From Gammaproteobacteria bacterium (GTDB lineage Bacteria; Pseudomonadota; Gammaproteobacteria; GCA-001735895): DNA of 64,000 nt. The first letter of the stretch is position 1. Every line of letters starts with the position of its first letter. Location of the stretch: NCBI GenBank assembly GCA_029862005.1, contig JAOTYD010000020.1, forward strand, positions 1 to 64,000. Direction: 5' to 3'. The notes under the pieces were generated by a model, which did not search any database, was not told the origin of the DNA, and saw only the letters and a list, made by a program, of their open reading frames with translations. Positions 5,851-63,231 of the stretch are shown here, one piece after another. The translations under genes were made by a program, and so were the position numbers.

Positions 5851-5915
5851 GGGGATAGACCAGGTTTATTTCACCGTCCGAATAGCAATCGAGCTAATCG
5901 TGGTCTGTCCCCTAT
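5851..5915. repeat. type B palindromic element
   Basis: Arms GGGGATAGACCA and TGGTCTGTCCCC, about 40 bases apart, form an inverted pair immediately after the last attC. Confidence 0.7.
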
Positions 5916-14096: not shown

Positions 14097-14143
14097 TCCA
14101 ATCCTGCTCAAGTAAACGGGGGTCAGTACAGGAATTCCGGGGG

Positions 14144-14261
14144 GGAATTCCGGGGACAGTATACCTATTAACTAATAGCCCCTAATCGTGGCATTAATTT
14201 TCGGAATTCCGGGGACAGTATACCTATTAACTAATAGCCCCTAATCGTGGCATTAATTTTC
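14144..14261. repeat. two perfect 59-bp tandem copies of a type A half element
   Basis: Each unit begins GGAATTCCGGGGACAGTATA and ends GGCATTAATTTTC; units at 14144-14202 and 14203-14261 are identical. A third partial start (GGAATTCCGGGGG) lies just upstream at 14131. Perfect identity means the duplication is recent. Confidence 0.9.
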
Positions 14262-18139: not shown

Positions 18140-18194
18140 AGGGGACAGACCACGCTTTCCTAAGCATTAAACTATAAACGTGGTCTGTCCCCTT
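18140..18194. repeat. type B palindromic element (intact)
   Basis: AGGGGACAGACCACG and CGTGGTCTGTCCCCT form perfect 15-base arms around a 25-base loop. It lies downstream of both flanking genes and could also stop transcription from either side. Confidence 0.85.
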
Positions 18195-22235: not shown

Positions 22236-22300
22236 CCCGAAACAGTATACCAGTTTCTTTACCTATGGCTTTCAAACTGTGGTGACAGTTTACTTAACTC
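22236..22300. repeat. mixed type A/C element
   Basis: CAGTATACCAGTTTCTTTACC is followed by GGTGACAGTTTACTTAACTCACC, a clean type C left arm. The remainder of the 22195-22394 gap holds nothing else I can name. Confidence 0.5.
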
Positions 22301-26719: not shown

Positions 26720-26804
26720 GAAATTGGAGGGCAGTATACCAAATTAAGTCAGCTCAACTTTCGGGCCGGGCTCGATGAAACAAGTATACTGTCCCTCGAA
26801 TTCC
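26720..26804. repeat. type D palindromic element (parent of the copy at 35.7 kb)
   Basis: TTGGAGGGCAGTATACCAAA and AGTATACTGTCCCTCGAATTCC lie about 45 bases apart, with the loop AACTTTCGGGCCGGGCTCGA. The same arms and loop occur at 35764-35847. Confidence 0.8.
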
Positions 26805-32428: not shown

Positions 32429-32482
32429 TAAGGTGACAATTAACTTATACTCGCAGTGCAGAAATCAGTTAACTGTCACCAA
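32429..32482. repeat. type C palindromic element
   Basis: AAGGTGACAATTAACTTA and AGTTAACTGTCACCAATT face each other across an 18-base loop. Confidence 0.75.
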
Positions 32483-33349: not shown

Positions 33350-33387
33350 TGCAGACCCTCCCCTTTCGAGCAATCCTGTGATATTCC

Positions 33388-33516
33388 GGATATTCCGGGG
33401 ACAGTATACCTATTAGGGGACAGACCCTGGTTTTAGTTAAAGCCCAGGAAAACGTTTTCTATCCCCTATTTGCCACGGGCAGCAATGTCAATCCTAATGA
33501 CTGTCCCCGTATTGCA
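33388..33516. repeat. type B element nested in a type A element
   Basis: ATATTCCGGGGACAGTATACC (type A left arm, to 33413) is followed directly by AGGGGACAGACCCTGG...TTTTCTATCCCCTATT (type B, 33415-33471) and then by ATGACTGTCCCCGTATT (type A right arm, to about 33516). The B copy thus interrupts the A copy. Confidence 0.6.
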
Positions 33517-35700: not shown

Positions 35701-35847
35701 CATCGCGGTAAATGCGAAACACCGAGCCGCCGTGCGGGCGCGAATCGGCAATAAAATGCGGCGAAATTGGAGGGCAGTATACCAAATTCAGTCAACTCAA
35801 CTTTCGGGCCGGGCTCGATGCAACGAGTATACTGTCCCTCGAATTCC
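35698..35847. repeat. chimeric copy: piece of the DUF2461 gene plus a type D element
   Basis: 35698-35767 matches 26435-26504 (inside the DUF2461 gene), and 35764-35847 matches 26721-26804 (the type D palindrome upstream of that gene). The parent has about 216 further bases between the two parts; they are missing here, and the join falls at GAAAT, present at both parent ends. Confidence 0.85.
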
Positions 35848-36262: not shown

Positions 36263-36283
36263 CAACAATAAGTAAAAGTAATC

Positions 36284-36350
36284 AGGGGACAGTATACATA
36301 TTTCAATCGTAAAGCTTGACGGGCTTGGATAGGTATACTGTCCGCTCTAA
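36284..36350. repeat. type A palindromic element
   Basis: AGGGGACAGTATACATATTT and ATAGGTATACTGTCCGCTCT, 25 bases apart; one arm has drifted. Confidence 0.75.
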
Positions 36351-36380
36351 TCCCTGAAAGAGGACTAGTCAATAATTCGA

Positions 36381-37025: not shown

Positions 37026-37047
37026 TCCTCGATTCCATTCGGCAGTT

Positions 37048-37117
37048 CGGGGGACAGTATACCTATTAACCACTAGCGAGCCTTAGGATTGAAATAACTA
37101 TACTGTCCCCGGAATTT
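37048..37117. repeat. type A palindromic element, copy 1 of a near-identical pair
   Basis: GGGGGACAGTATACCTATTA, loop ACCACTAGCGAGCCTTAGGA, then ATACTGTCCCCGGAATTTG. It shares the whole loop with the copy at 39850. Its right arm codes the last residues of the downstream gene. Confidence 0.9.
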
Positions 37118-39840: not shown

Positions 39841-39849
39841 CTCCTAATC

Positions 39850-39920
39850 AGGGGACAGTATACCTATTAACCACTAGCGAGCCTTAGGATTGAAAAAGGT
39901 ATACTGTCCCCGGAATTTGC
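39850..39920. repeat. type A palindromic element, copy 2 of a near-identical pair
   Basis: AGGGGACAGTATACCTATTA, the same loop as 37048, and GGTATACTGTCCCCGGAATT. Arms are perfect over at least 15 bases. Confidence 0.92.
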
Positions 39921-40041
39921 GGAATTTGTGACTCGGACCACGTTTTACGTTTTTTCCTGCAAATGGCAAAAACTGGCCTGCTCCCTGACTCCATTCGTAT
40001 AATGGCGCCTCAACGATTCGCGGTGGATAAGGATCCGGCTT

Positions 40042-45090: not shown

Positions 45091-45262
45091 GGCCTCCTCA
45101 AACAGGGCTGCACCCTGCGTGTTATTATATTTATGTAATGTAAGGCAGACGAATAATGCATCCTGCAAATTATCGTTATTCGGCAAAAGCCTAGCAGGAA
45201 ATCGATGTATCTTACAAGCCGGCAAGAGCCTGTCACCAAAACCCCGGGACCCAAATCCCCTT

Positions 45263-45317
45263 CTACCTATTAGGTATACTGTCCCCGGAGTTGCGGAATT
45301 GCGTGTCCCCGGAATTG
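45263..45317. repeat. type A right arm followed by a second partial copy
   Basis: CTATTAGGTATACTGTCCCCGG then GTGTCCCCGGAATTGATG: one full right arm and one shortened repeat of its end. Confidence 0.65.
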
Positions 45318-49649: not shown

Positions 49650-49730
49650 AATTCGGGGGACAGTATACTTATTTCGTACTTGCCCAGGCATTTGAACTTG
49701 AGCGAATTAAGTATACTGTCGCCGTATTTC
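49650..49730. repeat. type A palindromic element
   Basis: CGGGGGACAGTATACTTATT and AATTAAGTATACTGTCGCCG, with a 36-base loop. Confidence 0.8.
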
Positions 49731-55990: not shown

Positions 55991-56039
55991 TTATGGTGAC
56001 AGTTTACTTGGTTCGGAATTAAGGTAACTGTCACCATAA
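55991..56039. repeat. type C palindromic element (intact)
   Basis: TTATGGTGACAGTTTACTT and AAGGTAACTGTCACCATAA; arms almost fully complementary, 11-base loop. It separates the IS91-like fragment from the truncated RAYT. Confidence 0.9.
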
Positions 56040-56043
56040 TATT

Positions 56044-56473
56044 CGGCATATTAATTTCCGCCAGGGTTGGCGCGGTCACTTGTGGCAATAGCGGTTTCAC
56101 TCCTTTCTGCTGGATGAAGATTACCTGCTTGCCACAGTCCGATATGTCGAAAGTAATCCGGTTGCCGCCGGACTGTGCCGACACCCCGGCGAATGGCCAT
56201 GGTCTAGCGCGCGGGCGCACCTCGAAGGCACGGACGACATCCTGGCGATCGTCAAGCCCATGCTCGATCGCGTAGCCGACTGGGAAGCCTACCTGTCCAG
56301 CAGCACCCGCAGCGACAGGGCGGAGTCGATCCGGCGACACAATCGAACCGGGCGCCCTCTCGGCATCACCGAATTCATAAAAATACTGGAGAAACAAACC
56401 GGCAAAACCCTCACCCCAAAACGCCCCGGCCCAAAACCAACCTCGACTAATTAGGTATACTGTCCCCGGAATT
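56044..56473 (+). pseudogene. truncated RAYT transposase copy with right-end repeat
   Basis: Nearly identical (few differences) to 62740-63169 of the intact element. The first 255 bases of the gene are missing, including the HVH nickase motif. A TAG replaces Glu101 of the intact copy (TGG CAA TAG CGG against TGG CAG GAA CGG). The Tyr region YVESNPVAAGL and the complete C-terminus are kept, and the copy still ends with the TTAGGTATACTGTCCCCGGA end (56451-56473). The high identity shows a recent origin. Confidence 0.92.
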
Positions 56474-62348: not shown

Positions 62349-63169
62349 AATTCCGGGGACAGTATACCTAACCCCAGAAGCACCGCTCAGTGGTAATCAG
62401 ATTCAAGCAGTCTCGTTGACAATTGCGCTATCGGTCTGGCGTGATATCATCATTGCGATCAAACGACTTACACGGAGGTAAGTTATGGCCAGGATGCCAA
62501 GACTCGTCGTGCCCGGTTACCCCCATCACGTCACCCAACGCGGGAATCGCCGTCAGCAAACTTTCTTCTGCGAAGGCGATTATCGCCACTACATCGCCCT
62601 GATGTCCGAATCCGCAGGTCAGGCCGAAACCGAAATCTGGGCCTATTGCCTGATGCCAAACCACGTGCACCTGGTGATGGTGCCGAGCAGCGCAGACGGT
62701 TTGCGAGCAACCCTGGGAGAAGCGCACCGGCATTACACCCGGCATATTAATTTCCGCCAGGGTTGGCGCGGTCACTTGTGGCAGGAACGGTTTCACTCCT
62801 TTCTGATGGATGAAGATTACCTGCTTGCCACAGTCCGATATGTCGAAAGTAATCCGGTTGCCGCCGGACTGTGCCGACACCCCGGCGAATGGCCATGGTC
62901 TAGTGCGCGGGCGCACCTCGAGAGCACGGACGACATCCTGGTGATCGTTAAGCCCATGCTCGATCGCATAGCCGACTGGGAAGCCTACCTGTCCAGCAGC
63001 ACCCGCAGCGACAGGGCGGAGTCGATCCGGCGACACAATCGAACCGGGCGCCCTCTCGGCAACACCGAATTCATAAAAATACTGGAGAAACAAACCGGCA
63101 AAACCCTCACCCCAAAACGCCCCGGCCCAAAACCAACCTCGACTAATTAGGTATACTGTCCCCGGAATT
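62349..63169 (+). mobile_element. RAYT unit with perfect 23-bp inverted ends
   Basis: The segment is bounded by AATTCCGGGGACAGTATACC(TAA) at 62349-62371 and its exact reverse complement at 63147-63169. It carries one gene, the transposase, whose last codon TAG overlaps the right end. The same ends recur as type A elements through the window, so the unit is probably the active parent. No target-site duplication was evident. Confidence 0.88.
62485..63150 (+). CDS. RAYT / TnpA_REP transposase (Y1 family)
   Basis: A 221-residue single-strand HUH nuclease of the REP-associated tyrosine transposase group. It has MARMPRLVVPGYPHHVTQRGNRRQ, the metal-binding motif MPNHVHLVM (His60 and His62), the catalytic Tyr119 in VRYVESNPVAAGL and the downstream GEWPWSSARAH. 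The C-terminal tail is basic. It would cut and move REP-type hairpins; here these are the type A palindromes. GGAGG lies six bases before the ATG. All key residues are intact, so it may be active. Confidence 0.95.
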   Translation: MARMPRLVVPGYPHHVTQRGNRRQQTFFCEGDYRHYIALMSESAGQAETEIWAYCLMPNHVHLVMVPSSADGLRATLGEAHRHYTRHINFRQGWRGHLWQERFHSFLMDEDYLLATVRYVESNPVAAGLCRHPGEWPWSSARAHLESTDDILVIVKPMLDRIADWEAYLSSSTRSDRAESIRRHNRTGRPLGNTEFIKILEKQTGKTLTPKRPGPKPTSTN

Positions 63170-63231
63170 CATGACCCCTTAGTCTCTGCACAGTAGGTAC
63201 AGGTTACGGATCTCTCCCCTTTAATTCATGA

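Follow-up and report, generated by a model that had tools for sequence, protein, structure and literature searches.

The window, i.e. the whole 64,000-nucleotide stretch that was analysed, contains between positions 62349 and 63169 a unit made up of one open reading frame enclosed by two 23-bp ends that are spaced by 775 nt. In Di Nocera et al. 2013 (PMC3733652), RAYT-like transposases with long terminal inverted repeats are named TIRYTs and the units TIRtrons, and these names are used here. The unit includes the following features.

62349 to 63169, + strand: TIRtron unit with the transposase gene and its perfect 23-bp terminal inverted repeats
62349 to 62371, + strand: left end with outer AATT, core GGGGACAGTATACC and inner tetranucleotide AACC
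62416 to 62421, + strand: TTGACA, possible -35 element inward of the left end, by sequence
62474 to 62478, + strand: GGAGG, ribosome-binding site of the transposase gene
62485 to 63150, + strand: TIRYT transposase gene, 221 aa
63147 to 63169, - strand: right end, inverted, with the TAG stop inside and inner tetranucleotide AATT

The left end (AATTCCGGGGACAGTATACCTAA) is the reverse complement of the right end at 23/23 positions, and the transposase stop codon TAG (63148 to 63150) lies within the right repeat. The perfect ends and the overlapping stop had both been recognised in the initial annotation and were confirmed.

The 221-aa protein matches Pfam Y1_Tnp (E 6e-11) and includes N59-H60-V61-H62 (HUH), W99-Q100 and the catalytic Y119 in the segment Y-V-E-S-N-P, which differs from the Y---Q motif of IS200/IS605 (subclass 1.1). 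Among 76 sequences, comprising the window protein and its relatives, H60, H62, Y119, N59, N123-P124, W99-Q100 and G188-R189-P190 are invariant or nearly so, the GRP triplet being carried by the C-terminal tail (residues 146 to 221). The top NCBIfam match for 60/60 relatives is REP_Tyr_transpos (NF047646), for which the window protein scores 75.6 bits, just under the equivalog cut-off of 80. The structure model of the transposase (pLDDT 91, pTM 0.88) has E. coli TnpAREP (4er8) as its best match among solved folds (Z 17.1, 156 aligned residues, rmsd 2.5), and thus the TnpAREP core fold; IS608 and ISDra2 transposases rank after it. A sequence search against solved structures also placed 4er8 first (E 9e-6).

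Comparison with a 77%-identical copy in the sister species G005 gave dN 0.13 and dS 0.98; hence, the gene is kept by purifying selection. It is the sole intact gene of its group in the genome. A further Y1 transposase gene, 33% identical, lies at G000:C59:8597-9250, and no GGGGACAG inverted ends were found around it in the stretch read.

The sequence GGGGACAG is present in both 23-bp ends of the unit, as expected for long ends of the GGGGWSAS type, and the protein carries the Y---NP, NHVH and WQ signature of class 2. According to PMC3733652, GGGGWSAS is common to many TIRtron ends, some of which occur as dimers or clusters. No GT[AG]G-footed REP hairpin was found within 400 bp of the unit on either strand, as would be expected for a TIRYT and not for a RAYT/REPtron, and the canonical REP/RAYT reading of the unit was rejected on account of this absence. 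Single ends of the unit and its relatives (122 ends) fold no better than shuffled sequences (mean z +0.16, other strand +0.26), and the subterminal hairpin in each end that characterises IS200/IS605 (subclass 1.1) is lacking in this set. Since isolated ends do not fold, the GGGGACAGTATACC hairpin proposed in the initial annotation was not borne out and represents merely two paired ends.

Given GGGGACAG in both ends, the lack of footed hairpins and ends that are not self-folding, the unit is an intact TIRtron encoding a TIRYT, probably of subclass 2.1, and not a REP-flanked RAYT. The name RAYT given to it earlier is thus correct in so far as the gene encodes an intact Y1/HUH transposase of the RAYT superfamily, and incorrect as regards association with REP sequences. 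In Quentin et al. 2018 (PMC6006769), most TIRYTs are placed in subclass 2.1 of the TnpAY1 family, without REP-like structures; this subclass, equivalent to Bertels group 1, is the second largest TnpAY1 group (14.9% of strains) and is defined by a C-terminal HTH resembling Bac_DnaA_C or HTH_23. In the window protein the tail after residue 160 is predicted to be helical, and searches for an HTH gave no Pfam, PDB-profile or fold match, which does not disprove one.

It is very unlikely that the ends are divergent REP sequences, recognised through a hairpin and a GTAG-like guide, and that the short elements described below are REPINs. Such a reading would agree with a nearest solved structure that is TnpAREP bound to a REP hairpin, with REP_Tyr_transpos as the leading model throughout the relatives, and with the occurrence of gene-less elements as inverted pairs, like REPINs. 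However, footed hairpins are missing at the unit, the 122 single ends show no folding above shuffles, the window protein falls under the model cut-off, and the ends fit the TIRYT motif as given in PMC3733652.

The 14-bp core GGGGACAGTATACC occurs in 27 exact copies in the 3.99-Mb assembly, as compared with none for the reversed control; when up to 3 mismatches were allowed, the 18-bp end gave 61 matches versus 3. Thus, the shared ends are not due to chance, and copies of this end, referred to as type A, are present elsewhere in the genome, without which the initial annotation could not have stood. Its statement that the type A palindromes share exactly the ends of the unit was too strong; only a core of 14-18 bp is common to them, and an exact match to all 23 bases is found in the window only at 62349, 63147 and 56451. 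The copies and type A elements in the window are as follows.

14144 to 14261, + strand: tandem 59-bp units with a type A end at the start of each
26721 to 26802, no strand assigned: short gene-less type A element with two inverted ends
35764 to 35845, no strand assigned: short gene-less type A element, ~90% identical to that at 26721 to 26802
36279 to 36352, no strand assigned: short gene-less type A element
37044 to 37116, no strand assigned: short type A element; the same place in G020 is also occupied
39845 to 39917, no strand assigned: near-copy of 37044 to 37116; left end within a type C element, which G020 has without interruption
45214 to 45292, + strand: remnant with the C-terminal part of a related gene and a right end
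49650 to 49729, no strand assigned: short type A element
56044 to 56473, + strand: second copy of the unit, 5'-truncated, with a stop inside and an intact right end; a type C palindrome replaces the left part

The copy at 56044 to 56473 has ~95% identity over its first 300 nt, and an internally deleted copy with both ends is located on contig C69. Homology between copies ends at the outer AATT, on the right side at 56473, in C69 and in a 95%-identical copy in G014, and on the left side in C69.

Of the 61 type A ends, 24 are located on the 66-kb contig C20, which comprises the window and another 2.3 kb (binomial P ~1e-26). This contig holds a striking concentration of type A ends together with most type B copies of the 4-Mb assembly, and its base composition is ordinary. 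Assembly contamination is not favoured as the cause of the clustering, the tetranucleotide profile and GC content resembling those of other contigs.

In the genus, about 100 elements were collected that have no gene and carry two type A ends in inverted orientation. They are mostly 46-230 bp, often 61 or 68-75 bp in length, and resemble MITEs in being short, in having no coding capacity and in sharing their ends with an autonomous element. Direct repeats at three tried borders of 101 short elements were not clearly above the shuffled expectation, so the target-site duplication of usual MITEs is lacking, and insertion with duplication of the target was rejected for this set. The absence of target duplication fits HUH enzymes and speaks against a mechanism of the DDE type.

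A clean empty site was not found when the joined flanks of 43/58 short elements (5158 of 6960 bases) were compared with 31 genomes. The single candidate (G016:C40) is not exact, the bases at its junction being altered, and the other three aligned loci remain occupied by an element or by a degenerate relative of one. The genomes compared did not reveal any transposition event. At the place of the unit itself, synteny with G014 breaks at the right end, where G014 has a type A end followed by other DNA. Between window 63170-63230 and G014:C112 (L142), a stretch of 97% identity downstream of a desaturase gene ends at the type A end, and the two genomes differ beyond it, a pattern suggestive of recombination or insertion through this end.

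As no other gene of this group is intact in the genome and the ends match, the unit is plausible as the source of enzyme for the type A elements, for which it is the best available guess. The initial annotation had gone further in naming it the likely parent of the local repeats, which is plausible but unproven. G018 and G016, species of the genus without a close intact copy, still carry 12 type A ends each, and the cores of the type B and type C families differ. A 49-bp type A element found at one locus in two species (G028:C146, L216, and G018:C70, L303) shows a compensatory A-T to C-G change in the stem, which suggests that the hairpin or symmetry is preserved at this locus.

The type A palindromes might instead be old, immobile inserts retained as terminators or other hairpins, on which the transposase no longer acts. 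Elements at the same locus in different species (G002/G000 and G028/G018), with the compensatory stem change, and their presence in species that lack a close intact transposase are in line with this; it is considered unlikely in view of near-identical elements at separate places in one genome (37044 and 39845) and of the intact gene under purifying selection.

One scan gave 80 named loci encoding proteins 46-89% identical to the window protein, distributed over Pseudomonadota, Thermodesulfobacteriota, Nitrospirota, Bacillota, Planctomycetota, Myxococcota, Armatimonadota, Elusimicrobiota, Methylomirabilota, Candidatus Electryoneota and others. Ends were compared in ~100 relatives from ten or more phyla. 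Inverted repeats with the consensus AATTCcGGGGACAccATACttAATT surround the gene in most of 80 relatives. Conservation spans -6 to ~+19 from the first G and stops sharply outside, and the end is accordingly defined here as ~25 nt. In the protein tree, phylum groups are clustered yet broken up, which makes transfer likely without proving it.

The distance between end cores follows that between proteins (Mantel r 0.35 and 0.33, p 0.0005), whereas the outer flank used as control gave no significant correlation. Ends of the same element, left and right, lie closer together (distance 0.17) than ends of different elements (0.41). Tracking of the protein by the core and the likeness of the two ends are as predicted for a cognate pair of enzyme and end.

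Among relatives L061-L140, 18/70 loci have the same spacing (56) between the GGGG of the left end and the start codon. The motif TTGA[CAT] is present within +16..+31 in 23/70 left ends versus 2/64 right ends, and a promoter may perhaps be built against the left end and be self-regulated.

The outer tetranucleotide of an end (-6..-3) is the Watson-Crick complement of the inner one (+18..+15), with z 4.0, 5.1, 5.9 and 4.4 for the four pairs in 122 ends, and the neighbouring pairs -7/+19 and -2/+14 show no complementarity in the same set. A second, partly overlapping set of ends gave z 2.4, 2.6, 3.5 and 1.5 on the same diagonal, and pooling (159 ends) gave z 9.5, as compared with 0.75 for direct repeats in the pooled ends. 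The value was 7.8 with one end per locus, 7.45 with AATT excluded on both sides, and 5.9 when inner sequences were shuffled only among ends of identical core. When only type A ends are considered, the complementarity is weak (maximum z 2.8).

In IS200/IS605 the enzymes choose a tetranucleotide by guide pairing, and the GTAG of TnpAREP can in part work likewise (PMC8266576); by analogy, a guide-like role of the inner tetranucleotide would be the most economical reading. In a group of 61-bp elements the outer tetranucleotide at one end varies from site to site (AGTT, TAAT, AAAT, TATT, AACT, AATT) with a nearly constant inside, and a short element in the C69 copy comes after a GATT which is part of the interrupted gene (GATGAAGATT/CTGGGGACAG). 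These observations suggest an origin of the outer tetranucleotide in the target, in a small sample where the opposite side of the junction is not continuing target.

The complementary tetranucleotides might alternatively be two half-sites bound by a transposase dimer on double-stranded DNA and not a guide and its target. This is possible but doubtful. Pairing within an end and across the two ends of an element could not be distinguished (327 versus 323; swap test 78 versus 72, not significant), and the covariation is strong between families and weak in type A, both of which favour half-sites. However, covariation persists among ends of identical core, and the fold of the enzyme is of a kind that acts on single strands.

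A tandem duplication of the junction between flank and element was found at 50/122 ends (~41%) in 40/75 loci, counted as an exact repeat with a run of at least 9. The duplicated unit combines 0-4 bases of the flank with the outer tetranucleotide and the start of the element, as in GGAATTAA/GGAATTAAGGGGACACC at locus L139 and GCAGATATGGG/GCAGATATGGGGACAG at locus L110. Random positions of the same loci gave 1.0 such duplications and shuffled flanks 0.4. In the second set of ends duplications occur at 12/48, about eight of them at loci outside the first set. Within the genus, 30/187 type A ends have a junction duplication, of which three in the window are listed.

14131 to 14155, + strand: junction tandem duplication (GGAATTCCGGGGG)(GGAATTCCGGGG)
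33380 to 33398, + strand: junction tandem duplication (GATATTCCG)(GATATTCCGG)
39911 to 39928, - strand: junction tandem duplication (CAAATTCCG)(CAAATTCCG)

For 28/32 strictly head-to-tail cases a start at -10..-6 is possible, and the other border is scattered from -8 to +29. Hence, one border is fixed at the element's edge and the other is free, a pattern that would be expected if synthesis or rejoining restarted at a fixed nick.

Ordinary replication slippage at G-rich or palindromic DNA, unrelated to the transposase, would also give exact repeats, often with 1-3 nt of microhomology, such as those found. It is not a probable source of the duplications, as they peak at -5..0 (50/122 ends) and are rare inside the element at +20..+50 (2-3/122), in counts that cover TIRtron ends alone, and as most of the exact cases (28/32) share a possible starting interval. 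Extreme repeats directly outside an end were observed at G000:C78:4174-4251, with three 22-bp copies, and at G005:C131:29696 (L225), with at least seven 8-bp copies (TTCGGGAA).

Taken as a whole, the unit is probably to be explained as an intact TIRtron of the TnpAREP superfamily whose enzyme nicks single strands via paired tetranucleotides and acts in trans on mini-elements. The transposase would nick single-stranded DNA at the AATT-like outer tetranucleotide, recognised by pairing with a protein-held inner tetranucleotide, in a manner similar to the guide-target pairing of IS200/IS605. The element would be joined to its target without duplication of the latter, type A mini-elements would be served in trans, and faulty or repeated processing at the nicked end may lead to short tandem copies of the flank-element junction. 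As a tentative proposal for TIRYTs in general, the target may be chosen by pairing with the inner tetranucleotide, and the target tetranucleotide itself may stay as the outer edge of the end; TIRYTs would then be hairpin-less relatives of IS200/IS605 with a guide in each inverted end, and processing would leave junction copies, seen at ~40% of ends across many phyla.

The unit belongs to a known, poorly studied TIRYT/TIRtron kind. It resembles units of this kind, as they appear in the two papers, in having a Y1 transposase with RAYT-type motifs, long inverted GGGGWSAS ends near the gene and no REP, and in the occurrence of ends as dimers elsewhere in some genomes. It differs in the ~25-nt end with complementary tetranucleotides and in the junction duplications, of which the available sections of PMC3733652 and PMC6006769 make no mention; no description of these two features or of absent target duplication was found in the papers searched, and it is the end features that deserve further attention. 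The unit shares its core fold and catalytic residues with RAYT/REPtrons (E. coli TnpAREP, 4er8), but it has no GTAG-footed REP hairpins and the protein has an extra C-terminal tail of 60-80 residues. Like IS200/IS605 (IS608, ISDra2), it has an HUH/Y1 core, no target duplication and a tetranucleotide possibly recognised by pairing; unlike these, it has neither subterminal hairpins nor tnpB, the ends are inverted repeats, and the Y motif ends in NP and not in Q. Type A elements are similar to REPINs and MITEs as short gene-less inverted pairs that presumably depend on a transposase in trans, but in contrast to REPINs they contain no palindromic REP core. The 25-nt end, the proposed rule of guide and target and the putative processing footprint make subclass 2.1 open to cleavage assays, and the findings tie an autonomous element to its short, presumably dependent elements within one genus.

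Two further families of repeats are found in the window. Type B, with the core GGGGACAGACCACG, occurs between 5851 and 35880 (at 5851, 5896, 14749, 18141-18192, 19519, 22428, 35517 and 35864); 8/11 of its copies in the genome (at most 1 mismatch) are located on contig C20, and no transposase with type B ends was identified. Type C (GGTGACAGTTTACTT) consists of short near-perfect palindromes at 22281, 32432-32480 and 55995-56035, one of which is joined to the truncated copy of the transposase gene at 56044.
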